From Candidatus Woesearchaeota archaeon (GTDB taxonomy: Archaea; Nanobdellota; Nanobdellia; Woesearchaeales; UBA11576), in contig JABGYH010000005.1 in the NCBI GenBank assembly GCA_018675335.1, positions 1 through 64,000 on the forward strand: a stretch of DNA of 64,000 bases, given 5' to 3'. Below, piece by piece: positions 15,977 to 58,389 of the stretch. The first letter of the stretch is position 1; every line of letters begins with the position of its first letter. The notes below the pieces were generated by a model, which was given only the letters and a program-made list of their open reading frames with translations, had not been told where the DNA came from and made no database searches. The position numbers and the translations under genes were made by a program.

Positions 15977-16031
15977 TACAACTACATTGACAGTTAATTG
16001 CCAGATATTTCTAAGTAAAATACAAGTATAC
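15977..16031 (+). promoter_or_regulatory. 44-bp-spaced operator pair, GESR operon
   Basis: TACAACTACAT at 15977 and TACAAGTATAC at 16021 start exactly 44 bp apart. The segment 16007-16031 (25 bp) is identical to 18780-18804 before the next operon. The AAGTAAAAT inside it may be the TATA element; that puts the start near 16045 and leaves a leader containing GCGGAGG before ATG 16074. Confidence 0.65.
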
Positions 16032-16073: not shown

Positions 16074-16607
16074 ATGAAATCAATTCGAGACTTAAAAAGC
16101 ACATACGACGGAGCAGATATAGCTAATTTAGTAGAATTCGCAAGCAGAGCTCCAATTATGTTACCCCCAGGAAACTATCATCTTGAAAAAAAAGGAAATA
16201 CTGCCCACGTATATGAACAAACAGGAATTAATAATTATAATATTGTAGACTTACCTCCTGGATTAAGTATTACTGGATTAAAAAATACAACTCAAGGTAC
16301 TGAAATTAGATTATCTTCAGGAGAAGGCTTAGGTGGAGTTGAATTAATCATCCTACATTCTATGCCTCATAGCAGGACAACCAATACAGGCACAACATAT
16401 TCTCAAAATAGATCTGCACCTACAAACTATGGCGAAAGTAGACCTAGTAGTTTAGGCGAAAGTAGACCAAACACCAATTTAGGAGAAAGTAGAGCAAGTA
16501 GTTTAGGCGAAAGTAGAGCAAGTAGTTTTGGTGAATCTCGACCAAGTAAACCTTCACGAAGTTATGGATGTGGCGAATCAAGAAGTAGTGGAGAATCTAG
16601 GTGGTAA
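16074..16607 (+). CDS. GESR-repeat protein, possible modification substrate
   Basis: Not a family I recognise. Residues 1-100 look like a compact beta-rich domain (APIMLPPGNYHLEKKGNTAHVY, GTEIRLSSGEGLGGVELIIL). A Thr/Ser/Asn-rich linker follows, then residues 120-176 hold seven copies of GESR at spacings of mostly 8-9 residues (PSSLGESR, ASSLGESR, ASSFGESR), one preceded by Cys. Ribosome site GCGGAGG. Only 3 bp separate its stop from the radical SAM gene, so they are co-translated. The leader-plus-repeats layout resembles repetitive precursor peptides whose cores are enzymatically altered; the alternative is a simple adhesive or binding repeat protein. Confidence 0.5.
   Translation: MKSIRDLKSTYDGADIANLVEFASRAPIMLPPGNYHLEKKGNTAHVYEQTGINNYNIVDLPPGLSITGLKNTTQGTEIRLSSGEGLGGVELIILHSMPHSRTTNTGTTYSQNRSAPTNYGESRPSSLGESRPNTNLGESRASSLGESRASSFGESRPSKPSRSYGCGESRSSGESRW
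16431..16604 (+). repeat. Imperfect 24-27 bp tandem repeats coding for GESR units
   Basis: Seven in-frame GESR units. The central ones share GGCGAAAGTAGA at DNA level, while the last ones use GAATCTCGA, so protein sequence is kept although codons have drifted. This suggests selection on the encoded peptide rather than recent DNA duplication alone. Confidence 0.7.
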
Positions 16608-16610
16608 AAA

Positions 16611-17975
16611 ATGAAAGTTCTAGTTATTAATCCACCAAACATGCCATTTAGTGAAAAAAGTTTGCTAATTGAACCAATCGATGTTTTAACAGTTGCAACT
16701 TTTATTCAATCATCAAATAACACAGTAAAAGTAATTGATATGGATGTAAAAAAGTTAGCACCAAAACAAATAAAACAAATAATAAAACAATTCCAACCTG
16801 AATTAACTATAATTCCTTTTGATTATCATATTCCTTTGCACACATCAAATGCAGTTAAAGGAGTTAATATTATTTCAAAAATTGCAAAAGATAATAATTC
16901 CAAAGTTATTGTAGGTGGAAAAACTCCAAAACATAAACCAGAATTATTTTTAAGAAATTATGCAGACATAATTATCAATACAGAAATGGAACCTGTGTTA
17001 AAACAATTAATCGAAACTAATTTTCAAAATTTAAAACAAATTCAAGGCATCAGTTATTTAGAAAAAAATAAATTAAAAATCAATATTTCCTGCTGTAAAA
17101 AAATAAACTTAGATTCCTTGCCAGTACCAGATAGATCTTTAATTGATATAACTGATTATATTGAAGTTAGAACTATTCTTTCAAGCAGAGGTTGTTTTGG
17201 GAAATGTGGTTTTTGTGCGACACCTAATTTTTGGGGATGTTGGAGAGCAAAATCTGCTGAAAATGTAGTAAAAGAAATTGAATATTTAATACAAAAATTT
17301 AATGCGAAAAAAATTCTTTTTCTTGACGACAATGCAACTGTTGATAAAGACAGAATGAAACAAATATCTAAATTATTAATTCAAAAAAATATCAAATGTA
17401 AATTTGGTTGTTTAGGTACAATTTCAACTTTTGATATAACTACTATGAAACTTATGCATCAAGCAGGTTTTAGGTGGATTCATTATGGTTGTGAATTTGC
17501 AAGTCAAAAAGTTTTAGATAGCTTAAAAAAAGGAATAACTCCAGATCAAATCAAAAAAACAATAATAGAAACAAAAAAAATTGGTTTTCGAGTAAGAACT
17601 AGTTGGATTTTTGATCTTCCCAATGCAGATGAAAAAGGATTAAAAAATACAATAGAATTAATTTTAAAAACTCAACCTGATGAAATTCGTGCTCATTTTT
17701 TAGCATTAAGAGTTGGAAGTGAATACAATTCAAAAACTAATTGTTTAAAACAACAATATATCCACAACTCAAAACCTAATGAAGAAATTAAAAGAGATCT
17801 CAACATAAAAACAATTCAAGAAAATTTAGACATTTTAATCAAACAACTCATAAATAAAAATTATGTGTTAGTTAAAAATGTTAAAGATTGGAGGAATGTA
17901 AAAAAACTTCAAAACAAAAATAAATCAGTAAAATTCATTTCATTATGTCCATCACGATATGGAGTTTGTTGGTAA
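16611..17975 (+). CDS. B12-binding-type radical SAM enzyme
   Basis: A 454-residue enzyme. Residues 1-145 form a Rossmann-like cobalamin-binding-type domain (LVINPPNMPFSEKS, VIDMD, KVIVGG, ADIIINTEMEPVLKQL) but without the DxHxxG cobalamin ligand motif. The radical SAM core follows with SSRGCFGKCGFCATP (Cys-x3-Cys-x2-Cys) and typical downstream text (ILFLDDNATVDKDRM, IHYGCEFASQKVLDSLKKGI). The C-terminus has two more cysteines (CPSRYGVCW). Such enzymes often methylate or rearrange unreactive carbons. Its immediate upstream partner is the GESR-repeat gene, which is therefore the natural candidate substrate (inference). Confidence 0.8.
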   Translation: MKVLVINPPNMPFSEKSLLIEPIDVLTVATFIQSSNNTVKVIDMDVKKLAPKQIKQIIKQFQPELTIIPFDYHIPLHTSNAVKGVNIISKIAKDNNSKVIVGGKTPKHKPELFLRNYADIIINTEMEPVLKQLIETNFQNLKQIQGISYLEKNKLKINISCCKKINLDSLPVPDRSLIDITDYIEVRTILSSRGCFGKCGFCATPNFWGCWRAKSAENVVKEIEYLIQKFNAKKILFLDDNATVDKDRMKQISKLLIQKNIKCKFGCLGTISTFDITTMKLMHQAGFRWIHYGCEFASQKVLDSLKKGITPDQIKKTIIETKKIGFRVRTSWIFDLPNADEKGLKNTIELILKTQPDEIRAHFLALRVGSEYNSKTNCLKQQYIHNSKPNEEIKRDLNIKTIQENLDILIKQLINKNYVLVKNVKDWRNVKKLQNKNKSVKFISLCPSRYGVCW

Positions 17976-17992: not shown

Positions 17993-18691
17993 ATGAGATT
18001 AGATTCAGAATTAGTTCAAAAAATAAATTCAAGTAAATATGTTTTAGGCGTAACTGGAAGTATGTCTTGTGGAAAAAGTTATGCATGCGATCAACTTGAA
18101 CAAATAGCAAAAGATTCAAACATTCAAGTTTACAAAGTTAATTTTGATTTAATGCGAAGAGATATTTTAGGAACAAATCCTAAGTATGAATCTGCAAGAC
18201 AAAGTTTAGAAGATGTATTTGGCCCGCAAATTAGAAAATCAGATAATAGCATAGATAGAACAATTCTTTCGCAATTAATTTATTACGATTCGAATGCAAT
18301 GGCCCAATATGGCGCACAATTAGCTCCTCACCTCAAACAATATCTGGATTGCGAACTAACAGATAGATCGGGAATAATTCTCGTTGAATGGGCATTACTA
18401 GTAGAAGATCAACTTCTAGATTTAGTTAATTATAATGTTCTATTAGTAACCTGCACGCATAATGCTCAGATGAATAGATTAAAAGATGGAGACTTATCGC
18501 AAAACGAAATTAAAAAACGCATTGCAGCTCAATTAACTAACGAACAAAAGAGATCAGAAATATTGTTACAACAAAAAGAAGCGCAAAAAAATGGAATGAA
18601 CGGGGAGTTGCATTTATTTGACACAACCAATGATCCTTCTACCCCCAATTATGAGTCATTATTTGGTAAAATTCTTTCAAAAGTAGCTTAA
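17993..18691 (+). CDS. Dephospho-CoA kinase-like P-loop kinase
   Basis: A 232-residue P-loop kinase. GVTGSMSCGKSYACDQL is a Walker A; the pattern VNFDLMRRDIL...FGPQI...IDRTILSQLIYY...IILVEWALLVE follows CoaE text (D-hV, FG, IDR..L, hhh..PLL.E). It differs from the standard CoaE by a longer middle and by Ser-Cys in the P-loop. A separate CoaE domain is fused to CoaD at 56.5-57.7 kb, so this copy may phosphorylate a different nucleotide-like substrate. It lies 17 bp after the radical SAM gene, third in the GESR operon. Confidence 0.65.
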   Translation: MRLDSELVQKINSSKYVLGVTGSMSCGKSYACDQLEQIAKDSNIQVYKVNFDLMRRDILGTNPKYESARQSLEDVFGPQIRKSDNSIDRTILSQLIYYDSNAMAQYGAQLAPHLKQYLDCELTDRSGIILVEWALLVEDQLLDLVNYNVLLVTCTHNAQMNRLKDGDLSQNEIKKRIAAQLTNEQKRSEILLQQKEAQKNGMNGELHLFDTTNDPSTPNYESLFGKILSKVA

Positions 18692-18749: not shown

Positions 18750-18804
18750 TACAACTATACGGACACATTTACATCAGAAATTTCTAAGTAAAATACAAGT
18801 ATAC
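18750..18804 (+). promoter_or_regulatory. 44-bp-spaced operator pair, radical SAM/SPASM operon
   Basis: TACAACTATAC at 18750 and TACAAGTATAC at 18794, again 44 bp apart. The second copy ends 12 bp before ATG 18817. If the AAGTAAAAT at about 18786-18794 serves as TATA element, the mRNA is leaderless, which agrees with the missing ribosome site. Confidence 0.65.
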
Positions 18805-18816
18805 ATATATATTAAG

Positions 18817-19803
18817 ATGGAACTTAATATACAAACAAACGACACTCAAACCAACCAACCAAGTTTGGAAAATTATTCTTTTTGTCTTTTCAGAATACCT
18901 AAAGAAGGAGGCAGAGTTTTATGGGAAATAACCAACTCTTGCAATTATAGTTGCTCTTATTGCATATTCAGTGCAAACAAAGGAAAAGTTAATGGAGAAC
19001 TATCAACAGAAGAAGTTTTTGAAGTAATCGACGGTTTAAAACAAAGAGATTTCTCACATCTAAAAATATCAGGAGGCGAACCATTCATTAGAAAAGATAT
19101 GGTCGACATCCTAAAAAAAGCTTCCGACTTAGGTTTTATTGTAGATATTTCAACTAATGGTTCATTAATTACAGAGAAACGTGCTCAACAATTAAGTGAA
19201 TTAGAACTAAATATGGTTCATGTAAGTTTAGATGGTCCTGATGCTAAAACTCATGAAGAAGTTAGAGGTCCAAAAACTTATGAAAAAACAATTAGAGGAA
19301 TTCAAAATCTCGTAACCAATAATGTTTATGTTAGACTCGGAACTGTAATCCACAAAGGAAATGAACACCAGTTAGAAGAAGTAGTAAAAAAAGCTGCAAG
19401 TTTAGGAGTTAATGAAGTTATTTTTTCTTACATGGAACCTGTTGGGCGAATGGAAGGAGACAATAGTCAAGTTTCATACAAACCAATTGAAACAACAAAA
19501 TCAGAAATTGAAATATTAGCACAAAAATATCAAGATCAGGTAAAAGTTAATTATAGTTTTACAGAAGATTCTCAATCTGAAGAAACTGGAACTTGCCCTG
19601 GTGGAAAAAAATTCTTGTTCATAGACAATCTGGGAAGAATTTCACCTTGTACATGGGTTACTGAAAAAGATCCAACTTACCAAACTAGCCTGACGGTTAA
19701 AGATGCTAGTTTCGACGAGGTTATGACATCAAATCCAATGCAAAATTATGTGGAAAGCTGTAAAGATTGTAAAGGATGTCCTGCAAGAATAAGATATGAA
19801 TAA
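18817..19803 (+). CDS. Radical SAM enzyme with SPASM-like C-terminus
   Basis: Core motif WEITNSCNYSCSYCIF (Cys-x3-Cys-x2-Cys), then KISGGEPFIRKD, STNGSLIT and SLDGPDAKTHEEVRG, standard for PqqE/MoaA-like radical SAM enzymes. The C-terminal region has CPGGKKFLFIDNLGRISPCTWV and CKDCKGCPA, a SPASM/twitch-type auxiliary iron-sulfur site as found in peptide-modifying enzymes. Its stop overlaps the next gene by 8 bp. In an operon with aminocarboxypropyl-transferase-like, ATP-grasp and methyltransferase genes it most likely modifies an amino acid or peptide, but the substrate is not visible. Confidence 0.82.
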   Translation: MELNIQTNDTQTNQPSLENYSFCLFRIPKEGGRVLWEITNSCNYSCSYCIFSANKGKVNGELSTEEVFEVIDGLKQRDFSHLKISGGEPFIRKDMVDILKKASDLGFIVDISTNGSLITEKRAQQLSELELNMVHVSLDGPDAKTHEEVRGPKTYEKTIRGIQNLVTNNVYVRLGTVIHKGNEHQLEEVVKKAASLGVNEVIFSYMEPVGRMEGDNSQVSYKPIETTKSEIEILAQKYQDQVKVNYSFTEDSQSEETGTCPGGKKFLFIDNLGRISPCTWVTEKDPTYQTSLTVKDASFDEVMTSNPMQNYVESCKDCKGCPARIRYE

Positions 19804-20875
19804 ATTTTCAAAAAAAAATACCCAAAAAAAAATGGAATCAAAAAAACAAAGTTTAGAAATGAGAATAAATCAAGAAGAAGTTTCAGCTCAAGTTGAATCA
19901 TTATTTCAAGGAAATCTTGAAAAAAATCTGATGTCAAGTGGTAAGTTTAGTTCTTTTTGTCCAACTTATTCATTCGCTACTGAAAATCTTACAGGATACA
20001 TGTCCCAAATAGACTTACAAAATAAACGAGTTTTAACAGTTAGTGCTTCAGGAGATCAAATAATTGAAGCTTATGCAATGGGCGCTACAGAAGTAGAAAG
20101 TTTTGACATAAATATTTTAAGTGCGTTTGTTACCGACTTGAAATTGACCGCAGTAAAAACATTATCTTTTGAAGAATATCAAAAATTTCTACTAAGACAA
20201 GATCAAAATAATCCAAATCAATTAAATTCTCAAGCACTAAATAAAAAAACATATTTAAAACTAAGATCTCAACTTAATGATTCAACTCAAACTTTTTTTG
20301 ATAATCTATATCAATTATTTCAAGATGGATCTCAAATAAGAGAAAGTCCCATTTTTAACAATCAATATGACACTAATCAACTAAAAACATTCAGCAACAA
20401 ATATTTACAAAGCAAACATTACTACGAACAAGCACAATTAAATTTACGAAAAGGACAAATCCCTAGTTGGACTTGCTCAAGCGTTACTGAACTTACTAAA
20501 AATTTTACTGACGAAAAATTTGATGTGATTCTTCTTTCAAATATTGCAGATTATGCAGAGGCAATGTTTCCAAATAATTCAAATTATATTCAAAAATTCA
20601 TAAAACAAGTAATTCAACCACTAGTTCCAAAACTTAATCCTCGAGGAATTATTTGTGCGGCTTACGTTTATGACATAAAAACAAAACAAACTCAAGATAC
20701 AAATCAAACATATAGGAGTCAAATTGATAATCCTTCAATTCGAAGGCAGGAATTACAGTCAACAAGATTAGATTATCAAGAACTTGTTTTTCCAAGTGTA
20801 CTACCACTAGTTCAAGATGGAGTAATCATCTTAACTAATTCTGAATTAATGTATCAAGGTGAACTACGATGTTAA
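19796..20875 (+). CDS. DUF3419/BtaA-like 3-amino-3-carboxypropyl transferase candidate
   Basis: A class I SAM-binding fold: KRVLTVSASGDQIIEAYAMG followed by EVESFDINILSAFVTDLKLTAVKTLSFEEYQKFL. This string matches the pattern of the DUF3419 family, which includes BtaA (transfer of the aminocarboxypropyl group of SAM to diacylglycerol). Late in the protein come KFDVILLSNIADY and NPRGIICAAYVYD. Residues 1-45 are polar, lysine-rich and unlike the core. It overlaps both neighbours (8 bp and 7 bp). A plain methyltransferase is the alternative; the lack of any lipid gene nearby argues for a non-lipid acceptor. Confidence 0.6.
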   Translation: MNKFSKKNTQKKMESKKQSLEMRINQEEVSAQVESLFQGNLEKNLMSSGKFSSFCPTYSFATENLTGYMSQIDLQNKRVLTVSASGDQIIEAYAMGATEVESFDINILSAFVTDLKLTAVKTLSFEEYQKFLLRQDQNNPNQLNSQALNKKTYLKLRSQLNDSTQTFFDNLYQLFQDGSQIRESPIFNNQYDTNQLKTFSNKYLQSKHYYEQAQLNLRKGQIPSWTCSSVTELTKNFTDEKFDVILLSNIADYAEAMFPNNSNYIQKFIKQVIQPLVPKLNPRGIICAAYVYDIKTKQTQDTNQTYRSQIDNPSIRRQELQSTRLDYQELVFPSVLPLVQDGVIILTNSELMYQGELRC

Positions 20876-21897
20876 ATGAAACTGAATTACAAGGATTACA
20901 CACAAATCAAAGATTATTAATTATTGAACTTCAAAACAGAGGAATTAATGTTAACTCTCTTGTTCCCGAAATGGAATTAGTTGAAGCAGAATATCACGGC
21001 CATAAAGAATTCATTCTTGACCGAGATTCATCAATTAATCCCTATCCTTCAACAGTCATTAGTGGAGACAAATATTTGTCAAAAAAGTTATTAGCTCGAG
21101 AAGGAATTAGCGTTGTTAGTGGTGAACAATTCGATGGAATTCACCAAAATGAAGCTTTAGTTTACGCACAAAAATTAAACTTTCCTTTGGTAGTCAAACC
21201 AGTTTTTGGATCACATGGTCATGGAGTTTACATGGATTTAGATAATCTGTGCGATGTTAAAGATGCAATTGATAAAATTAGTGGAGAATATGGATCTAAC
21301 AAAACATACTTGGTTGAAGAACAATTTGAAGGAAAAGAATATAGAGTTTTCATAACTCAAAATGGAGATTATGCAGTTCTTCACAGAGATTGTGCGCACA
21401 TCATAGGAGATGGAACTAAAACAATCGAACAATTAGCAAATCAAGAATCTGAAAATAGAATGACTGAATCAGACGATCCATCATTTCCAAGAAAAAATTG
21501 TCTTTGTCCAGTTCAACTTGATGAGGTTGTTAATAATTATCTTGCACGCCAACAAAAAGATACAAATTATGTTCCGCCAGAGGGTGAAAAAATTTATCTT
21601 AGACATAATTCAAATGTGGCAGTCGGAGCTACTTGTGAAGATTATACTGATATTGTTCACCCCTCAATTATTGAAATTGCAAAAAAAGCGCTAAACGCAT
21701 TTCCAGGATTACCTTATGCAGGATTAGATTTTTTATCAAAAGATATTACTAAACCACAAACTGCAGATATGTATAGATTATTAGAAGTAAATTCAATTCC
21801 AGGAATACATATGCACATGAGACCTGGAACTGGAAAATCTCAAAATGTTGCAAAATACCTTGTGGATATGATGTTTCCAGAAACTAAATATTCATAA
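20869..21897 (+). CDS. ATP-grasp ligase of the cyanophycin synthetase/GshAB type
   Basis: ATP-grasp enzymes join a carboxylate to an amine via an acyl phosphate. Readable elements: STVISGDKYLSKKLLAREGI, FPLVVKPVFGSHGHGV, TYLVEEQFEGKEYRVFI, AHIIGDGTKTIEQL (the GDGxxTIxxL motif of the CphA/GshAB ligases), and the metal-binding end YAGLDFLSKDI...YRLLEVNSIPGI. The 342 residues cover little more than the ATP-grasp unit, so substrate recognition is in this domain or in partners. The ribosome site AGGTGAACTACG lies inside the preceding gene, which it overlaps by 7 bp. Confidence 0.78.
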   Translation: MLNETELQGLHTNQRLLIIELQNRGINVNSLVPEMELVEAEYHGHKEFILDRDSSINPYPSTVISGDKYLSKKLLAREGISVVSGEQFDGIHQNEALVYAQKLNFPLVVKPVFGSHGHGVYMDLDNLCDVKDAIDKISGEYGSNKTYLVEEQFEGKEYRVFITQNGDYAVLHRDCAHIIGDGTKTIEQLANQESENRMTESDDPSFPRKNCLCPVQLDEVVNNYLARQQKDTNYVPPEGEKIYLRHNSNVAVGATCEDYTDIVHPSIIEIAKKALNAFPGLPYAGLDFLSKDITKPQTADMYRLLEVNSIPGIHMHMRPGTGKSQNVAKYLVDMMFPETKYS

Positions 21898-21930: not shown

Positions 21931-22722
21931 ATGAACGAAAAAACAAACAACGAAAATAATAATAATAAAAACTCTAATAAAACTAAAGATTTAATCAAAA
22001 AAAATAAATTAGATTCAGAACCACAAAATCAAAATAGTAATCTCGGTGAAGGTTCTAAAAGTTATCATGAAGAAGCAGATATTTATGAACGTTTTAGTCA
22101 AGTTGAAGATTCTCCTAAAAAAATTCTAAACTTCTTAAAACCACTAATTGAAGGTAAAAAAGTTCTAGATCTTGGTTGTGGTACTGGAAAATTCATGATT
22201 GATTTAGCGCACGTTTCAAAAGAATATGTGGGACTTGATATTTCAAAAGATCAATTAAACATTGCAAAAAATAAACTTATTAAAAATAACATAAATAACG
22301 TAAAATTAATTCAATCATCTGCGGAAAATATACCTCTTGAATCTAATCAATTTGACGTAATTATTTCAACGTGGGTTTTAGGCACAATTCAAGATGAATC
22401 TCGTCGAGAAAAAGCAGTTTCAGAGGCGCTGCGTTTGTTGAAAACAGGGGGATCCACCTATTTAGTTGAAAATAACAGCGGAGGGGACTTTGAAGTAATA
22501 AGAAATAGATTCCCAAATAAAGAAAGAACAGAAAAATATAATTCATGGTTGTTAAATCATAAATTTATTGTTGAAATTGAGTTTAATACCTATTTTGAGT
22601 TTAATAATTTAATTGAAGCTCAAAAGATTTTTGAACATATTTGGGGTAAAACTGCTATGTCCAAAATTAAATCAAATAGAATTAAACAAAAAATAATAAT
22701 TTTTAAACAAGAAAAAAAATAA
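21931..22722 (+). CDS. Class I SAM-dependent methyltransferase
   Basis: Core motifs KVLDLGCGTGKFMIDLA (SAM binding), YVGLDISKDQLNIAKNKL and FDVIISTWVLGTIQDE place it in the Methyltransf_11-type family. The first 45 residues are Asn/Lys-rich and poorly structured. No catalytic residue reveals the acceptor. It lies 33 bp after the ATP-grasp gene as the last member of the operon and probably methylates the same product (N- or O-methylation). Confidence 0.8.
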   Translation: MNEKTNNENNNNKNSNKTKDLIKKNKLDSEPQNQNSNLGEGSKSYHEEADIYERFSQVEDSPKKILNFLKPLIEGKKVLDLGCGTGKFMIDLAHVSKEYVGLDISKDQLNIAKNKLIKNNINNVKLIQSSAENIPLESNQFDVIISTWVLGTIQDESRREKAVSEALRLLKTGGSTYLVENNSGGDFEVIRNRFPNKERTEKYNSWLLNHKFIVEIEFNTYFEFNNLIEAQKIFEHIWGKTAMSKIKSNRIKQKIIIFKQEKK

Positions 22723-22732
22723 AACTAATTTT

Positions 22733-23590
22733 TTATTTCATCCCAGTATATTTATGTAATCCTTCCAAAGAATCAATTCTTTTTTTTGCAGGAAGGGCTA
22801 ATTGAAATTTTTTCCAAAAAACTTGTTTGATCCATTCAACCCACTCAGGATCATAAATAGAATAATAAACTCCCAAAATCTTTTTATCTTCTCCTTTTTT
22901 CCCTGCAGGTACTTTTATTTCAGAAAATTTTGCAATTTTTCCATCAATAATGTATGCGCGCAAAGGAGTTATTTCGTGTTTTACTTGAACCATTTCTTTA
23001 CCCATTTGAATATTGATTGCAAGTATATCTCTTAAATTTTTCAAATCAAGTAATGCCACATTAGTAATTATTTTAAAAATTACTCCTCGCTTCACTGCAT
23101 CGCGAACAGAATCAAGTAATGTTCGTCCATCATGTTTTAAGTGAATCCAAGAATTGTTTCCAGAAAACGCTAATACTTCTTCTTCTGCATTATCTATCAA
23201 GGGAAATAATGTTTCTGCATTGTATTGATAATTAGGAGTTATTTCTTCAAAATATCCATCTCTTTTTTCAGGATCTACATATTGATAAATTTCTATTGGA
23301 GAAAAATCATTTTTTTCTATTCCTTTTTCCATTTGAGCAAAAAGTTTTTCTTGTATATCCGTTGCATAAATTTTTTCGAGATTATTCCAAAAAACAATTT
23401 TAAGTGCGCCTCTTGATCCTTCTCTAAATACTCGCATTTGTATGTGACCAGTTCTTTTACTTATTTCTTCAATATACCGATCAGCAGTTCTCCAGTTTTT
23501 CCCAAGCATTTGAGCAATTTCATTTACTGCTCTGGGTTTTGCATAAACAAACGCTTTGATTTTATCTATAGTTTTATTATCAAGGACCAT
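22733..23590 (-). CDS. HTH transcriptional regulator with PLD-like sensor domain
   Basis: Residues 1-60 form a winged-helix-like DNA-binding domain (VYAKPRAVNEIAQMLGKNWRTADRYIEEIS). Residues 120-260 carry the PLD-like fold seen in TrmB-type effector domains (EEEVLAFSGNNSWIHLKHDGRTLLDSVRDAVKRGVIFKIITN, AYIIDGKIAKFSEI), without a full HKD motif, so sensing rather than hydrolysis is likely. Leftward TATA GATTTATATATAAAC at 23624-23638 and ribosome site GAGGTG before ATG. It diverges from the CinA operon and is the best local candidate to bind the 44-bp-spaced motif pairs. Confidence 0.7.
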   Translation of the reverse strand: MVLDNKTIDKIKAFVYAKPRAVNEIAQMLGKNWRTADRYIEEISKRTGHIQMRVFREGSRGALKIVFWNNLEKIYATDIQEKLFAQMEKGIEKNDFSPIEIYQYVDPEKRDGYFEEITPNYQYNAETLFPLIDNAEEEVLAFSGNNSWIHLKHDGRTLLDSVRDAVKRGVIFKIITNVALLDLKNLRDILAINIQMGKEMVQVKHEITPLRAYIIDGKIAKFSEIKVPAGKKGEDKKILGVYYSIYDPEWVEWIKQVFWKKFQLALPAKKRIDSLEGLHKYTGMK

Positions 23591-23647: not shown

Positions 23648-23702
23648 TACAACTACATAACTAATTCTTAACCAATAAATATTAACATAAATACAACTAT
23701 AC
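23648..23702 (+). promoter_or_regulatory. 44-bp-spaced operator pair, CinA-Nudix-NMNAT operon
   Basis: TACAACTACAT at 23648 (identical to 15977) and TACAACTATAC at 23692 (identical to 18750), 44 bp apart. The pair sits between the divergent regulator gene and the rightward operon. A separate TATA box TTTATAAAT is at 23769-23777. Confidence 0.65.
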
Positions 23703-23801
23703 TAACATAACATGAACAAAAAATCACAAAGTAAAAGAACTTACTTAGGAGTGGTAAAAAACGTTAAGTTTATAAATAGAAGATCACTGGAGGAATATAA
23801 G

Positions 23802-24668
23802 ATGGCATTACAAGAAATAATTCAATCACAATCAAAATTAGTTAAAAGCTACGCACATAAATTAGGTGCAGCTCACAAAAACGGATATGATTTAGCGCAA
23901 GAGCTTTTCAAACCATACACTGAGGAACTTGCAACAAGAGTAGAAGATCAACTTGCACAAAAAAAAGAATCAGGAGAATGGACTGCATTAATTGACGCAG
24001 CAAATGCAGATTTAACCGCTTGGAAAGAAGAATCTGGAAGAATTCAAAGATATACTCCCGAAGAACTTGCACAAGCAAGATTACAAAAAGAAGTTGCAAA
24101 CGAATACTCAACTGAAAAAAGTGGAGAACTAGCACTAGTAAATCAATTTCATCAAGCAATTATTTCTTATGCAATTCAAAATTTAGGTGTTGCAACAGAA
24201 TTAATCAAAGAAGGAAAATCTAAAAGAAAGTTTGCAATTGTTGAATTAATTTCAAGACTTGCACCCTCACTTAATTTTCCAGGATCATCAAGTTATTTAA
24301 CCGGCGCATTTGTTCCTTATGCAAGAGAAGCAAGAACTGTTTTAGGAGAATCAACACCTACTGGATCTTATGTTCAACCAAGCGTTGCAGTTGAAAGCGC
24401 ACATAATTTAATTCTTCAATTTGAAGTTAGTTATGCTCTAGCAGAAACTAGTGCAGCACCGCGTTCTGATGTTCCAAAATCAAAAAGATTACCTGAAGTT
24501 CACATTTGTAGTGTTGCTAATGGAACTAATGACCCGGAAGCTCAAGCCATGCAAACTCAAAAACATGAAATTCCAACTCACTTTAGAGAAGAATTCGACT
24601 CTGCAGTAAGAGAATTAATGTTCAAAGAATTAGTTTCAATGTATCAAATTGAATTAAATGTTGATTAA
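23802..24668 (+). CDS. CinA C-terminal (PncC-like) domain protein
   Basis: The middle of the protein, FPGSSSYLTGAFVPYAREARTVLGES...PSVAVESAHNLILQFEVSYALAETS, follows the CinA C-terminal domain, whose active members (PncC) deamidate nicotinamide mononucleotide. The usual ESxTGG motif just before PGSS is not recognisable and the downstream lysine is arginine, so activity is doubtful. The N-terminal 100 residues are helical and unrecognised. ATG 23802 is chosen because GGAGG lies at 23789-23793; ATG 23712 would add 30 residues and would suit a leaderless message 9 bp after the operator. First of three NAD-type genes. Confidence 0.55.
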   Translation: MALQEIIQSQSKLVKSYAHKLGAAHKNGYDLAQELFKPYTEELATRVEDQLAQKKESGEWTALIDAANADLTAWKEESGRIQRYTPEELAQARLQKEVANEYSTEKSGELALVNQFHQAIISYAIQNLGVATELIKEGKSKRKFAIVELISRLAPSLNFPGSSSYLTGAFVPYAREARTVLGESTPTGSYVQPSVAVESAHNLILQFEVSYALAETSAAPRSDVPKSKRLPEVHICSVANGTNDPEAQAMQTQKHEIPTHFREEFDSAVRELMFKELVSMYQIELNVD

Positions 24669-24670
24669 AA

Positions 24671-25159
24671 ATGGCAAATCGAAAAAAAGTTTATGATTCC
24701 AGGGGACATGATAATCCAGGAAATGGCGTTGGAGTTATAATTCCAAATCCAAATAATCCTGATGAAATTGTTATGACTCTTAGAACTGCAGAAACAACAA
24801 ATAGTGCAGGAATGTGGGAACTTCCAGGAGGAAAACAAGATCTTTTTGAAACAATATATCAAGCAGGATCTCGCGAAACATTTGATGAAGTAGGTTTAGA
24901 AGTTTGCATAAAAGGTTGCATAGATATTTGCGATTTACGAATTGAAGGACAACATTGGATGAACTATACTGTTGTTGCAGAAGTTAAAGGTGGAGAATTA
25001 ACTAATAAAGAAGACTTAAAATTTGATGAAGTAAGATATATGAATATTCACGAACTTCCAGAAAATACTGCTCTCCTTGCAATCAGAGGAATCAGAAATT
25101 ATATTACAAAAAGACAACATTTAGAATATATTTTAATTGAAACAGTTGTTCAAGATTAA
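24671..25159 (+). CDS. Nudix hydrolase
   Basis: The Nudix box is readable as GGKQDLFETIYQAGSRETFDEVGL (G-x5-E-x7-RE-x2-DE-x-G), with Asp replacing the first Glu of the EE pair. Preceding text GMWELPGGKQ and VVIPNPNNPDEIVMTLRT-like strands are typical of the fold. Length 162 residues. It starts 2 bp after the CinA-like gene and precedes an NMNAT-like gene, so a role in hydrolysing NAD-type or other nucleotide diphosphates is plausible. Confidence 0.82.
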   Translation: MANRKKVYDSRGHDNPGNGVGVIIPNPNNPDEIVMTLRTAETTNSAGMWELPGGKQDLFETIYQAGSRETFDEVGLEVCIKGCIDICDLRIEGQHWMNYTVVAEVKGGELTNKEDLKFDEVRYMNIHELPENTALLAIRGIRNYITKRQHLEYILIETVVQD

Positions 25160-25192
25160 TAAAAAAAAAATAAAAAATAAAACAGACCCAAA

Positions 25193-26269
25193 ATGAGACT
25201 ATCAAAAACAGATGTATTAAGATCAATAAAAAGGTACAACCAAGAAGTTAGGTTAAAAGAACTTAGTGCACAAGGAATTCATAAACTTGTACTTACTACA
25301 GAACCTGATCGAGAACGAGATGAAGTTGGAAAAGTAGTTATTGCTTTCGGTTCATACGATCCATTAACTATAGGGCATGTTAATTTATTTCTAAGTGGTC
25401 TCGACGCAGTAGAAGATAAAGAAGCCACTCGCGGATCTGAATCATTAGATGAATTAGTTATTGCAACGAGTACATCACATATAGATAAACAAATCAATTT
25501 AATGCGAAATTCAACAATTTCTGATAGAGTTCATGCACAAGAAGGTTTTGCTGATGCACTCGATAATGTTAGTTTAGCATTTACAAACACTCCTTTTTTC
25601 ATAGATTTAATCCCATTATTTGAACAAAAATATGGAAAAGATGTTGATCTTTATTTTTTAGTGGGAGCAGATGTTATGGAAAAAATTGTTGATCCAAAAT
25701 CATACGAACGCCACGACAAATCTATTGATGAAGTTTTACCCTCATTATTTAGACATAATTTTATTGTTTGTGAACGTCAAGTTCAATACAAAAATGAAGA
25801 AGGAGAAGTAACATCTGAAAGATATCTTAACCGAGATCTTATTCTTGCAGAACATCCGGAAATATCTAAATATACAAAAAAAATGCTTCCAGTAGATCTT
25901 AGAGATAATGAATACCCTGACTTAGAAATTTCTATTTTGGAAGTGAGTTCGTCACTTGTTAGAAAATTAAGGGGAAACGGAAATGAAACTCAATCAGATG
26001 AAAATTCTGCTCCTTGGAAAAAATTAGAAGCAGTAGGAATTAGTGATTTTGTAGATAAACGTTCATTGTATATGAGAGGAAGTGAAAAATACAAAGCAAT
26101 TGTGGCCTTAACTCGTGCGTATGCAGATCATTTTAGACCTAAAGGAGTTCAACCATTACAATATATTAATGCATTAATGCAAGATCTAAGACACGCAGAC
26201 GAAGATAGCGAATTTAGAGATCATGTTATCAGAAGTTATGACGCAGGAATTCCATTAGTTAAAAAATAA
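25193..26269 (+). CDS. Nicotinamide/nicotinate mononucleotide adenylyltransferase-like protein
   Basis: A nucleotidylyltransferase of the HxGH superfamily: VVIAFGSYDPLTIGHVNLFLSG (TxGH variant), YFLVGADVMEKIVDP (as in NadD), and ILEVSSSLVRKLRG (the ISSTxIR motif). At 358 residues it is much longer than NadD (about 200), with insertions around residues 80-95 and 160-220 and a 60-residue helical C-terminal extension. Adenylylation of a mononucleotide is the likely reaction; NAD synthesis is the natural guess from CinA and Nudix neighbours, but specificity is not proven. Confidence 0.68.
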   Translation: MRLSKTDVLRSIKRYNQEVRLKELSAQGIHKLVLTTEPDRERDEVGKVVIAFGSYDPLTIGHVNLFLSGLDAVEDKEATRGSESLDELVIATSTSHIDKQINLMRNSTISDRVHAQEGFADALDNVSLAFTNTPFFIDLIPLFEQKYGKDVDLYFLVGADVMEKIVDPKSYERHDKSIDEVLPSLFRHNFIVCERQVQYKNEEGEVTSERYLNRDLILAEHPEISKYTKKMLPVDLRDNEYPDLEISILEVSSSLVRKLRGNGNETQSDENSAPWKKLEAVGISDFVDKRSLYMRGSEKYKAIVALTRAYADHFRPKGVQPLQYINALMQDLRHADEDSEFRDHVIRSYDAGIPLVKK

Positions 26270-30995: not shown

Positions 30996-31065
30996 ACTTA
31001 ATATAAAATATAAATAATATTTTTACATTTTAAACTTAATAATTCAAAAAAAAGAGGTGTTTATC

Positions 31066-32586
31066 ATGGCTACAAAAAATTCTACTAAAAGTACAACTAA
31101 ATCAAAAACTTTCACTGCTCAACATAAGAAATTAGTTGATTCGCTAAATCCTAAACAAAAAGCTTATGTTAATTTAAAATTAAAAAATCCACAGAATGGA
31201 GAATATCTTCTAAGTGTGTTTCATTTAATTCCTGGAAAAAAACACAATATTTTACAAGCAGCATCAGAAGTTGCAGCAGAGTCTTCAACCGGAACAAATT
31301 TTAGAGTTCAAACAGAGACTCCATTTTCTCGCACAATGAATGCATTAGTTTACCAAGTAGATTTAAAACGAAATCTTGTATGGATTGCATATCCGTGGAG
31401 ATTATTTGATAGAAATGGTAATGTTCAAAATATTTTAACATATGTTGTAGGCAATGTTTTAGGAATGAGTGATGTTGATGCACTTAAACTTCTTGACGTA
31501 TGGTTCCCTCCTGCAATGCTTGAACAATATGATGGTCCTAGTTATACTATTGATGATATGAGAAAATACTTAGATGTTTATGATCGTCCAATTTTAGGAA
31601 CTATTGTTAAACCAAAAATGGGATTAACTTCTGCAGAATATGCAGAAGTATGTTATGATTTCTGGGTTGGTGGAGGAGATTTTGTTAAAAACGATGAACC
31701 TCAAGCAGACCAAGACTTTTGCCCATATGATAAAATGGTAAAACATGTTAAAGAAGCAATGGATAAAGCAGTTAAAACTACTAAAAGAAAAAAAGTTCAT
31801 TCATTTAATGTTTCATCTGCCGATTTTGATACTATGATCAAACGTTGTGAAATGGTTTGTAATGCAGGATTTGAACCTGGAAGTTATGCATTTTTAATTG
31901 ATGGAATTACTGCAGGGTGGATGGCAGTTCAAACACTTCGTAGAAGATATCCTAATGTATTTATTCATTTTCATAGAGCCGCGCATGGAGCATTTACTCG
32001 GCCAGAAAATCCAATGGGTTTTACTGTTTTAGTTCTATCAAAGTTTGCTCGTCTTGCAGGCGCATCAGGAATTCATACTGGAACTGCAGGAGTAGGTAAA
32101 ATGAAAGGAACTCCTAAAGAAGATATAATTGCAGCACATGTAATTCAACATTTTAAAGATAATGGCCACTTTTTCACGCAAGCTTGGAGTAAAATTCCAG
32201 GAAAAGATAAAGATGCAATTCAGTTGACCCATAAAGATATTGCACATCAAGTTATTTTAGAGGATGATAGTTGGAGAGGTATGAAAAAATGTGCACCAAT
32301 TGTTTCAGGAGGACTAAATCCAACGCTACTAAAACCATTTATTGATATTATGGGTAATGTTGATTTTATTACAACTATGGGTGCTGGTTGTCATGCACAT
32401 CCTAAAGGAACAAAAGCTGGAGCTGCAGCACTCGTTCAATCATGTGATGCGTATAAACAAGGAATAAGCATTCACACATATGCAAAAAAACATAAAGAAC
32501 TCAAACAAGCAATTGACTTTTTTGAAAAGAAGAAAACAGATCATGTTAAATTAGTAAAAAAAGCGCATAATACTGAAAAAAATTAA
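31066..32586 (+). CDS. rbcL: RuBisCO large subunit, form II/III type
   Basis: Fixes CO2 onto ribulose 1,5-bisphosphate; in DPANN archaea form II/III enzymes usually serve AMP/nucleoside salvage. Catalytic residues: TIVKPKMGL (Lys182, Lys184), GGDFVKNDEPQ with the carbamylated Lys208 and metal ligands Asp210/Glu211, HFHRAAHGAF (His303, His307), loop 6 GTAGVGKMKG (Lys345) and PIVSGG. The NDEP signature is form II-like rather than the DDEN of form III. It has a 50-residue basic N-terminal extension and an insertion near 370-402 similar in place to that of the methanogen form II/III enzyme. ATG 31066 is preferred to GTG 31057, which lies in the ribosome site. AMP phosphorylase and R15P isomerase are not in this window. 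Confidence 0.92.
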   Translation: MATKNSTKSTTKSKTFTAQHKKLVDSLNPKQKAYVNLKLKNPQNGEYLLSVFHLIPGKKHNILQAASEVAAESSTGTNFRVQTETPFSRTMNALVYQVDLKRNLVWIAYPWRLFDRNGNVQNILTYVVGNVLGMSDVDALKLLDVWFPPAMLEQYDGPSYTIDDMRKYLDVYDRPILGTIVKPKMGLTSAEYAEVCYDFWVGGGDFVKNDEPQADQDFCPYDKMVKHVKEAMDKAVKTTKRKKVHSFNVSSADFDTMIKRCEMVCNAGFEPGSYAFLIDGITAGWMAVQTLRRRYPNVFIHFHRAAHGAFTRPENPMGFTVLVLSKFARLAGASGIHTGTAGVGKMKGTPKEDIIAAHVIQHFKDNGHFFTQAWSKIPGKDKDAIQLTHKDIAHQVILEDDSWRGMKKCAPIVSGGLNPTLLKPFIDIMGNVDFITTMGAGCHAHPKGTKAGAAALVQSCDAYKQGISIHTYAKKHKELKQAIDFFEKKKTDHVKLVKKAHNTEKN

Positions 32587-56540: not shown

Positions 56541-57716
56541 TCACAATCCTAATTCGCTTTGTAAATATTCAACACATGCCCCAACTGAACGATCAAGATC
56601 TTTTAATGACCCACTATTATCAACAACATATTCAAATCCAGTTCCTGATACTGCAATTTCTGCATTTATTATTCTACTCCTATCAGAATCACTCATTTGT
56701 GCACCAACTCTTTTTCTAAAAACTGAAGCAGGAATTCCCCTATAATCTAAACATCGTTGTTCACGAATAGCTAAATCACCAGTTACATGAATCACATTAT
56801 TATTTCCCATGTAAATCATACCTTTATCAGCAATTAATGCAGCATTAACTAATACCAATCCTTCAAAGCCCTCTTTTTGTCGTCGATATTCTCGATCGAG
56901 TGCAGGATAAATAATTCCTTCTAATTTTTCACGATATTTCACTGAAGAGAATGCGACCTTTCCAAGTTTTGCTTTATCAATTGCACCATCCGAACCTAAA
57001 ACTGCAGGACCAAACGCTTCAATCACATCTGCAACAACGCGATTATGATATGGACATTCTGAATTAAAGTAAAGTCCTTCAACCAGCACATCAAGATCTA
57101 AATCTAAAACTGGAAACCTGGCTTGCGCAGCAATTAATTTTCCAACTTTGGTTTTTCCACTACCCATTCCACCAGTCAACCCAACAATTCTTTGATGTAA
57201 TAATTTTTCTTCAAGTGCTTGTTTAACATTTAATGGAACAAACTCATGAACTGGTCCGCCTGCAAGTAATGTGTCTTTAATATATGAACTTGATAGTGCT
57301 TTTTCATTTTCCCCAGATTTAACAAAAATTGGAGTGGATTCAGATCCTAATTTTTTATACCACCAATCAAGATCAACTTCGAAATCAAAATCTGTCGAAT
57401 TTCTAAGTCCTCTCAATAAAAAATCGACTCGATTCGCATACAAAAAATCAGGCAATAAATTCCCAAATCTAACAACTTCAACAGTAGGAAATTTTGCTAA
57501 AGCTTTCGTGGTTAACTCAGCTCGCTCACCACCACTAAATGCATATCTTGATTTTTTTCGGGGATTATCAGCAATCACAACCCATAATTTTTCAAATAGA
57601 GGTGCGAAAGTTTCAACTACACTAACATGCCCATTATGTAATGGATCTGCAGATAATGGATATACTGCATTCAACTTTTTTGTACCTAATATTGGTTCAC
57701 TCATGGGTTCACTCAT
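56541..57716 (-). CDS. coaDE: Bifunctional phosphopantetheine adenylyltransferase/dephospho-CoA kinase
   Basis: Last two steps of CoA synthesis in one chain. Residues 10-160 are a bacterial-type CoaD: VYPLSADPLHNGHVSVVE (HxGH), VIADNPRKKSRY, VDFLLRGLRNSTDFDFE and ALSSSYIKDTL. Residues 190-390 are CoaE: GLTGGMGSGKTKVGKLI, FPVLDLDLDVLVEGLY, VIEAFGPAVL and VLVNAALIADKG. Most archaea use unrelated or distantly related enzymes for these steps. Start ATG 57716, with GGTGATTTTA before it; it overlaps the GNAT gene by 8 bp. The order resembles human COASY but the CoaD half is of the bacterial branch. Confidence 0.88.
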   Translation of the reverse strand: MSEPMSEPILGTKKLNAVYPLSADPLHNGHVSVVETFAPLFEKLWVVIADNPRKKSRYAFSGGERAELTTKALAKFPTVEVVRFGNLLPDFLYANRVDFLLRGLRNSTDFDFEVDLDWWYKKLGSESTPIFVKSGENEKALSSSYIKDTLLAGGPVHEFVPLNVKQALEEKLLHQRIVGLTGGMGSGKTKVGKLIAAQARFPVLDLDLDVLVEGLYFNSECPYHNRVVADVIEAFGPAVLGSDGAIDKAKLGKVAFSSVKYREKLEGIIYPALDREYRRQKEGFEGLVLVNAALIADKGMIYMGNNNVIHVTGDLAIREQRCLDYRGIPASVFRKRVGAQMSDSDRSRIINAEIAVSGTGFEYVVDNSGSLKDLDRSVGACVEYLQSELGL

Positions 57717-58389
57717 TAAAATCACCACCATTATTTGTTAAACATTTACTCAAATCAGCAACAGGAGTAGTAGTTAAATCATTTTCAGTCTCAGCATCAT
57801 TTATGCTAGAATCAGCTCTTTTTTGTCGCGTGCCATAAATATCTACAGTTTCAGCACACAAGTATTTACTACAAATGAATACGTCTTTATAAAAATAATG
57901 ATTCTCCACCACTTGTGTTTCATATCCATGTTCTTCTAAGAACGTTTGAACCCCACAATCATCAATTGTTTCCACCTGCATTTTATGATCTCCGAGTTCC
58001 AAACAAACATATTCTATTTGTCCAAGAACTTGAGTTCCAATTCCTTTTCCACGCACAGTACTTGATAAAAACAAATACATCGAAGAAACTCCCCCCAATC
58101 TATGCAGTTTCATAATTCCAACTGAATTTGTTTTTCCCCCACTAATTTGATTAATCGAATATGTTTCTCGATTACTTTGAATATGCAAATACACATCTTC
58201 CCAATCAACTCCAAATACTTTTTTAAGATGAGAAACGTATTCTTGTTCGACATCACAAAATTCACTCATAATCCCTGCACCACCCAAATCATCCAAATTA
58301 CCCAAATTACCCAAATCACCTAACTCACCTATCTCATCCAAATCACAGTCCAACAAACCCTCTTCAATTAATTTTATTTCAATTGTCAT
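57709..58389 (-). CDS. GNAT-family acetyltransferase with LGxL-repeat N-terminus
   Basis: The acetyl-CoA-binding core is readable: SVGIMKLHRLGGVSSMYLFLSSTVRGKGIGTQVLGQIE (RxxGxG loop), then VETIDDCGVQTFLEEHGYE and the closing strand. Residues 12-40 are an acidic repeat (ELGDLGNLGNLDDLGG) encoded by 9-bp tandem repeats. Its substrate is unknown; the CoA cluster context may be direct (acylation of a CoA intermediate) or accidental. It overlaps the start of coaDE, so the two are coupled. Confidence 0.72.
   Translation of the reverse strand: MTIEIKLIEEGLLDCDLDEIGELGDLGNLGNLDDLGGAGIMSEFCDVEQEYVSHLKKVFGVDWEDVYLHIQSNRETYSINQISGGKTNSVGIMKLHRLGGVSSMYLFLSSTVRGKGIGTQVLGQIEYVCLELGDHKMQVETIDDCGVQTFLEEHGYETQVVENHYFYKDVFICSKYLCAETVDIYGTRQKRADSSINDAETENDLTTTPVADLSKCLTNNGGDFNE
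58283..58345. repeat. Seven 9-bp tandem repeats inside the GNAT gene
   Basis: Imperfect copies of CCCAAATCA/CCCAAATTA in a row (63 bp). They encode an in-frame LGx tripeptide repeat, so copy-number change would alter length without a frameshift. Confidence 0.75.

Follow-up and report, generated by a model that had tools for sequence, protein, structure and literature searches.

The window that was analysed in this work, i.e. the whole stretch of 64,000 nucleotides of DNA from a Candidatus Woesearchaeota archaeon, contains a cassette consisting of a repeat protein and six or seven enzymes, viz. a B12 radical SAM enzyme, a CoaE-like kinase, a SPASM-like radical SAM enzyme, a DUF3419 protein, an ATP-grasp ligase and, usually, a class I methyltransferase. 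The repeat gene (16074..16607, + strand) codes for a protein of 177 aa, which is the likely substrate of the cassette and has homologues in G001, G012, G116, G301 and L028. Its N-terminal domain (residues 1 to ~105) is followed by a tail in which seven GESR units begin at residues 120, 128, 137, 145, 153, 167 and 173, so that the last 58 residues of the open reading frame contain all of them. Based upon the repeat count and the conservation of ESR, this stretch (16431..16601, + strand) likely harbours the modification sites. The preliminary description of this DNA had placed seven GESR repeats, kept as peptides while their codons differ, after a domain of roughly 110 residues, and this is borne out by the open reading frame (the codons vary between GGC, GGA and GGT for Gly, AGT, TCT and TCA for Ser, and AGA, CGA and AGG for Arg) and by shuffling of the 72-residue tail, where 20,000 trials gave a mean of 0.03 and a maximum of 2 GESR in comparison to the 7 observed. 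A single protein of the GESR-repeat type was found in the genome of this archaeon. The N-domain of the archaeal repeat proteins is predicted to be folded and beta-rich (AlphaFold2 pLDDT 86.6 for the ~105 residues). The repeat protein matches no Pfam family, and no clear match to its N-domain was seen among solved folds (best Z 4.7), which by itself does not prove that the fold is new.

The gene for the B12-type radical SAM enzyme (16611..17975, + strand; CxxxCxxC motif intact) begins 3 nt past the stop codon of the repeat gene. The protein matches the Pfam Radical_SAM family (1e-18), its B12-binding domain scores 29.5 bits, slightly below the cut-off of 32.1, and the NCBIfam models that it matches best are those of B12 radical SAM enzymes, e.g. 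BchE, HpnJ and the MCR glutamine C-methyltransferase; OxsB is found among its distant sequence relatives with structures. The curated threshold of TIGR03975 (RiPP maturation radical SAM C-methyltransferase) is not reached (score 64.6 versus 281.85). The short spacing between the two genes, which had earlier been read as translational coupling, is real at this locus, but it is not conserved in relatives, as the two genes of the sister genome G001 are 259 bp apart, with a small ribbon-helix-helix-like ORF in the gap, and most relatives have the repeat gene between the DUF3419 and ATP-grasp genes and not before the B12 radical SAM gene. Two archaea have a small ORF of this kind (47-60 aa) directly 5' of their B12 radical SAM gene (L007:4319-4498 and L059:1982-2122, the latter on the - strand), and an ORF of the L007/L059 type was not found in the window.

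The remaining enzymes are encoded on the same strand (+), downstream of the repeat gene. The CoaE-like P-loop kinase (17993..18691; CoaE 2.2e-18), which in Bacilli is mostly fused to the SPASM enzyme, is a paralogue separate from a CoaD-CoaE fusion encoded at 56541-57731 on the - strand. This fusion is apparently the housekeeping CoA-synthesis protein of the archaeon, and its presence rules out such a role for the cassette gene. The radical SAM/SPASM-like maturase (18817..19803; Radical_SAM 3.8e-29) has a SPASM match under the cut-off (0.0019), its counterpart in L026 scores above it, and the pattern CP-x(10-11)-G-x4-C is present in 17/17 SPASM-like enzymes. The DUF3419 (BtaA-type) SAM-dependent enzyme (19796..20875) belongs to PF11899 (1.2e-9), with 38.3, 40.4 and 47.1 bits recorded for cassette proteins against a cut-off of 28.2, and it has a class I SAM fold whose best Z scores are to spermine synthase and methyltransferases. 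The ATP-grasp ligase (20869..21897; 342 aa) is of the cyanophycin synthetase/GshF type. It best matches cyanophycin synthetase (TIGR02068, 1.5e-65) and GshAB (1.6e-49), and the RimK family only at 7.7e-12; its PDB relatives include 7wac, 7lg5 and 3ln7. However, at 221.7 bits versus a cut-off of 850 for full-length CphA, it does not qualify as a cyanophycin synthetase. CphA and GshF are its closest named relatives, from which the cassette enzymes, of ~340 aa, differ in standing alone without a Mur-like or GshA part and in being kept beside a ribosomal substrate candidate. The class I SAM methyltransferase (21931..22722; Methyltransf_31 3e-23) is encoded 3' of the ATP-grasp gene in most loci, but it is the least regular member, and next to the cassettes of L024 and L032 none was matched. 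The catalytic motifs are intact in nearly all of the cassette enzymes. Since none of the cassette genes scored at an NCBIfam cut-off, among the matches listed, no described pathway in NCBIfam claims them.

Three paired operator-like boxes are present in this region, all on the + strand. The first of these, TACAACTA-36 nt-TACAAGTA (15977..16028), precedes the repeat gene, the second (18750..18801) the SPASM gene, and the third (23648..23699) lies between a putative regulator gene and the next operon. Each is a 52-bp element formed by a TACAA(C/G)TA pair with a constant 36-nt spacer, and those before the repeat and SPASM genes share an identical 24-bp stretch. When the exact pair was searched with spacers of 25-50, and with the reversed pattern as a control, three occurrences were found in the archaeon's own genome, all in the cassette region; G001 has two, both on the contig that carries its cluster, and G301 has one, 5' of the B12 radical SAM unit; all six occurrences have identical spacing, and the control gave 0 to 3 per genome. 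Copies with one mismatch occur in G116 and G301, and no box was found in G012. The box precedes cassette units in four archaea, and it is a putative operator, dedicated to the cassette and joining its units in archaea. The adjoining gene (22733..23590, - strand) is located beside the cassette in three archaea and has homologues in L007 and L011. Its product matches no Pfam or NCBIfam family and is inferred to be a transcription regulator; as the box sits in the intergenic region of this gene in three genomes, it is suggested, by inference, that this protein binds the box. The same box in this genus also precedes an operon for a CinA-like protein, a Nudix hydrolase and a NadD-like nucleotidyltransferase (23712..26269, + strand), which are possible accessory genes and a weak hint at nucleotide metabolism. 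Elsewhere in the window, the ORF at 31057-32586 (+ strand) resembles an archaeal RuBisCO large chain.

The repeat protein was detected in 3 of 144 relatives (own genome counted) and in 3 of the 371 genomes of the phylum. All seven genes are present in G001 and G012, the repeat protein of the latter being a diverged copy that was detected via its neighbourhood, the cassette of G116 is interrupted by a contig end, and that of G301 is divided over two contig ends, with the B12 radical SAM and CoaE genes on C10. A scan with the ATP-grasp alignment led to contigs of Clostridia, Bacilli and Bdellovibrionales (~50% identity), and surveys around these bacterial relatives found the enzyme in 5/288 and 5/238 genomes. 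A contig scan with DUF3419 alone yielded no finds, and the distant DUF3419 genes of G162, G082, G159 and G381 lack both the cassette and an adjacent ESR-repeat protein. In total, 18 loci have a visible neighbourhood (5 archaeal, 6 from Clostridia, 6 from Bacilli and 1 from Bdellovibrionales), although L052 and L053 are near-identical and the number of independent loci is therefore slightly lower. A (G/S)ESR protein is encoded in the cassette neighbourhood at all 18, although similarity of the ATP-grasp was the sole criterion by which the bacterial loci had been collected. The Bdellovibrionales locus (L028:2335-9092) codes for an archaeal-type GESR-domain protein with one GESR, the ATP-grasp enzyme, an NRPS adenylation-carrier-reductase protein and a NadR-like gene product, and contains no radical SAM gene. 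In L048 the B12 radical SAM gene is split into two frames. Large serine recombinase-like ORFs, possibly linked to mobility, are seen near some bacterial cassettes (L052:287-1957, L053:806-1567 and L026:17662-19344).

It had been proposed that the association of the repeat protein with the radical SAM enzyme be checked by their co-occurrence in relatives. This association is upheld, as an ESR protein is accompanied by members of the enzyme set at each of the 18 visible loci, and one or both of the radical SAM genes are present at 17 of these, the Bdellovibrionales locus being the only one with none nearby. However, the B12 radical SAM enzyme is just one of six or seven enzymes, and it is the DUF3419 and ATP-grasp genes that most regularly adjoin the repeat gene; the ESR gene is located between these two in 12/12 Clostridia and Bacilli loci whose contig covers this position. 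The order B12 radical SAM-CoaE-SPASM-DUF3419-ESR-ATP-grasp-(methyltransferase) is identical in the archaeon G012 and in bacteria, and in the trees based on the ATP-grasp, SPASM and B12 radical SAM sequences the Bacilli, Clostridia and archaea consistently form separate main groups, with the archaea adjoining the Clostridia as the trees are drawn (uneven support, midpoint roots). Based on these trees and the identical gene order, the results would fit a passage of the whole cassette, as one block, from one domain to the other, in either direction. No other gene in the flanks is conserved across lineages. A known phage or plasmid system was also considered and no match was found in viral, plasmid and phage collections; a role in defence is not supported, the PADLOC matches being confined to broad models for radical SAM enzymes and methyltransferases.

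ESR is the sole tripeptide common to all 18 cassette repeat proteins. In 85 of 92 occurrences the residue before it is G or S, and R completes 78 of the 94 (G/S)ES(x) units; the degenerate units (16/94) vary at the Arg position, and the Glu and Ser are almost never lost. ESR counts are far above those in shuffled sequences in nearly all 18 proteins. The proteins with one or two copies are, taken singly, near chance (33/3000 shuffles for L054; not significant for the one copy of L028), but the 18-protein set as a whole is far from chance. The bodies that carry the units are of three unrelated types: the archaea and Bdellovibrionales have a beta-rich N-domain, the Bacilli a coiled coil and the Clostridia a helix. 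The coiled coils of the Bacilli are homologous to one another (phmmer mostly 1e-5 to 1e-11), and the ESR units either precede the coiled coil (L026, L048, L049), follow it (L032, L050) or flank it on both sides (L027). Because the bodies are unrelated between clades and the tail is swapped around one and the same coiled coil, it is the motif which constitutes the conserved part. The leader-then-core order suggested by the preliminary description does not hold generally, as the ESR units of the bacterial proteins can be N-terminal, C-terminal or both. An ordinary low-complexity protein might merely happen to lie beside an unrelated pathway, e.g. for a lipid or a CoA-like cofactor; Ser/Gly-rich tails do evolve fast, and DUF3419 with a class I methyltransferase recalls BtaA/BtaB of betaine lipid synthesis. 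However, such a chance neighbourhood is very improbable in view of 18/18 loci from two domains of life in which only ESR is kept.

We consider it probable that the repeat protein serves the cassette enzymes as a RiPP-like substrate with multiple cores, and that they modify its ESR units in turn; the chemistry and the role of the product are inferred. The ESR units and the enzyme set are kept together; the individual reactions, their order, the release of a product and its role constitute a proposal. The single-GESR Bdellovibrionales member, with its locus lacking a radical SAM gene, counts against this substrate pathway. B12 radical SAM enzymes mostly methylate unactivated carbons, CoaE phosphorylates a hydroxyl, BtaA of the DUF3419 family transfers aminocarboxypropyl groups, and the ATP-grasps of CphA and GshF form amides at carboxylates; from this established chemistry a stepwise modification of the Glu-Ser in ESR is proposed, with the Arg as a recognition residue and with the order and sites inferred. 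The substrate would be a cytosolic protein in which a carrier or recognition domain is joined to a flexible Ser/Gly/Tyr-rich tail, and each (G/S)-Glu-Ser-Arg unit would be processed independently. The B12 radical SAM enzyme may C-methylate or otherwise functionalise an unactivated carbon, and the kinase, coupled to the SPASM enzyme, may phosphorylate a hydroxyl of Ser or of a group added to it. DUF3419 would transfer a 3-amino-3-carboxypropyl group from SAM, the last methyltransferase would methylate this group, and the ATP-grasp enzyme would form an amide or ester at a carboxylate of the Glu side chain or of an added group. Both the function of DUF3419 and the acceptor of the CoaE-like kinase are guessed from family membership. 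The logic of transfer, methylation and amidation is similar to that of diphthamide synthesis and, apart from the amidation, of BtaA/BtaB, but this is an analogy only and no homology to the Dph enzymes is claimed.

The cassette has neither a peptidase nor an exporter gene among those identified, and release or export genes, which are common though not universal in RiPP clusters, are not conserved in its flanks; nor did Pfam or the fold comparison of the N-domain point to a known RiPP recognition domain in the repeat protein. Due to this absence from the cassette, a released peptide product is doubtful, and in the absence of a peptidase and a transporter an intracellular role, either as a cofactor borne on or released from a scaffold or as a decorated protein, is at least as likely as a secreted peptide. 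If the ESR protein serves as a scaffold, then a small cofactor or metabolite would be built on the ESR units and subsequently released, as for PQQ, mycofactocin and the LysW-type amino-group carriers, with the repeats raising throughput. The lack of an exporter or peptidase agrees with this possibility, and a nucleotide-linked or reduced small product is hinted at by the operator before the CinA-like, Nudix and NadD-like genes in this genus, together with the NadR-like gene and the A-T-reductase NRPS protein in Bdellovibrionales. However, these nucleotide genes are not conserved beyond this genus and there is no evidence of release, and the scaffold remains a possibility that we regard as short of likely. 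Alternatively, the ESR protein could be permanently decorated, with a structural or metal-binding role in which the body multimerises and the modified units act in place, e.g. as ligands. A folded or coiled-coil body of variable type with a swapped tail position is compatible with this, and aminocarboxypropyl transfer is also known from metal chelators such as nicotianamine, but Cys is scarce in the ESR proteins and no metal-related neighbour was noticed, which leaves this alternative rather unlikely.

The cassette satisfies one general criterion for RiPPs, viz. a short genetically encoded precursor with a core motif that is clustered with modifying enzymes. In TvgA/TvgB, a TVGG-repeat precursor and a radical SAM enzyme encoded by a small gene cluster (PMC9062424), a short motif is likewise repeated many times in the precursor, and modification of the units by the radical SAM enzyme is known. 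However, the motif there is TVGG and one radical SAM enzyme is accompanied by an oxidase, a peptidase and a transporter, whereas the cassette described here combines ESR with two radical SAM enzymes, a kinase, DUF3419, an ATP-grasp and a methyltransferase, and lacks a peptidase and transporter. By analogy, the ESR cassette may work like a multi-core radical SAM RiPP of this type, with a different motif and different enzymes. The graspetides (PMC8939145) similarly combine an ATP-grasp enzyme with a neighbouring multi-core precursor in which Glu and Ser are a possible donor and acceptor, but the ligase of the ESR cassette is of the cyanophycin synthetase/GshF type and does not have RimK-like families as its best match. 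The His-Xaa-Ser (Hxs) system of Haft and Basu (cited in PMC9062424) also has a tripeptide-like motif, two radical SAM enzymes and an unknown product; its motif is different, the ESR cassette has further enzyme families, and HxsB and HxsC are not among the NCBIfam matches listed (for the SPASM gene, the best 25 of 114). None of the family models searched describes the ESR cassette, and the open-licence literature searched contained no description of DUF3419 with radical SAM enzymes, of dephospho-CoA kinase with radical SAM enzymes and a RiPP, of cyanophycin synthetase with radical SAM enzymes and a precursor peptide, or of GESR, nor any earlier case in which a ribosomal substrate is modified by a CoaE-like kinase and DUF3419.

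It is tentatively proposed that DPANN archaea and gut bacteria with small genomes share a new class of ribosomal-scaffold biosynthesis, a reading to which we give limited weight. Here the internal repeat protein would supply the Glu-Ser(-Arg) units, and the two radical SAM enzymes, together with the CoaE-type kinase, a transferase of the aminocarboxypropyl type and the ligase, would turn these into a cofactor or ligand of unknown identity, which may be nucleotide-linked. Due to the strictness of the ESR motif, the presumed modification sites are known beforehand and modification of the repeat protein is directly testable by mass spectrometry. If the ESR units are indeed modified by the cassette enzymes, the cassette would represent a peptide modification pathway of several steps in which both the motif and the combination of enzymes have not been seen before, and which is retained in the reduced genomes of archaea and gut bacteria, where few genes can be spared.
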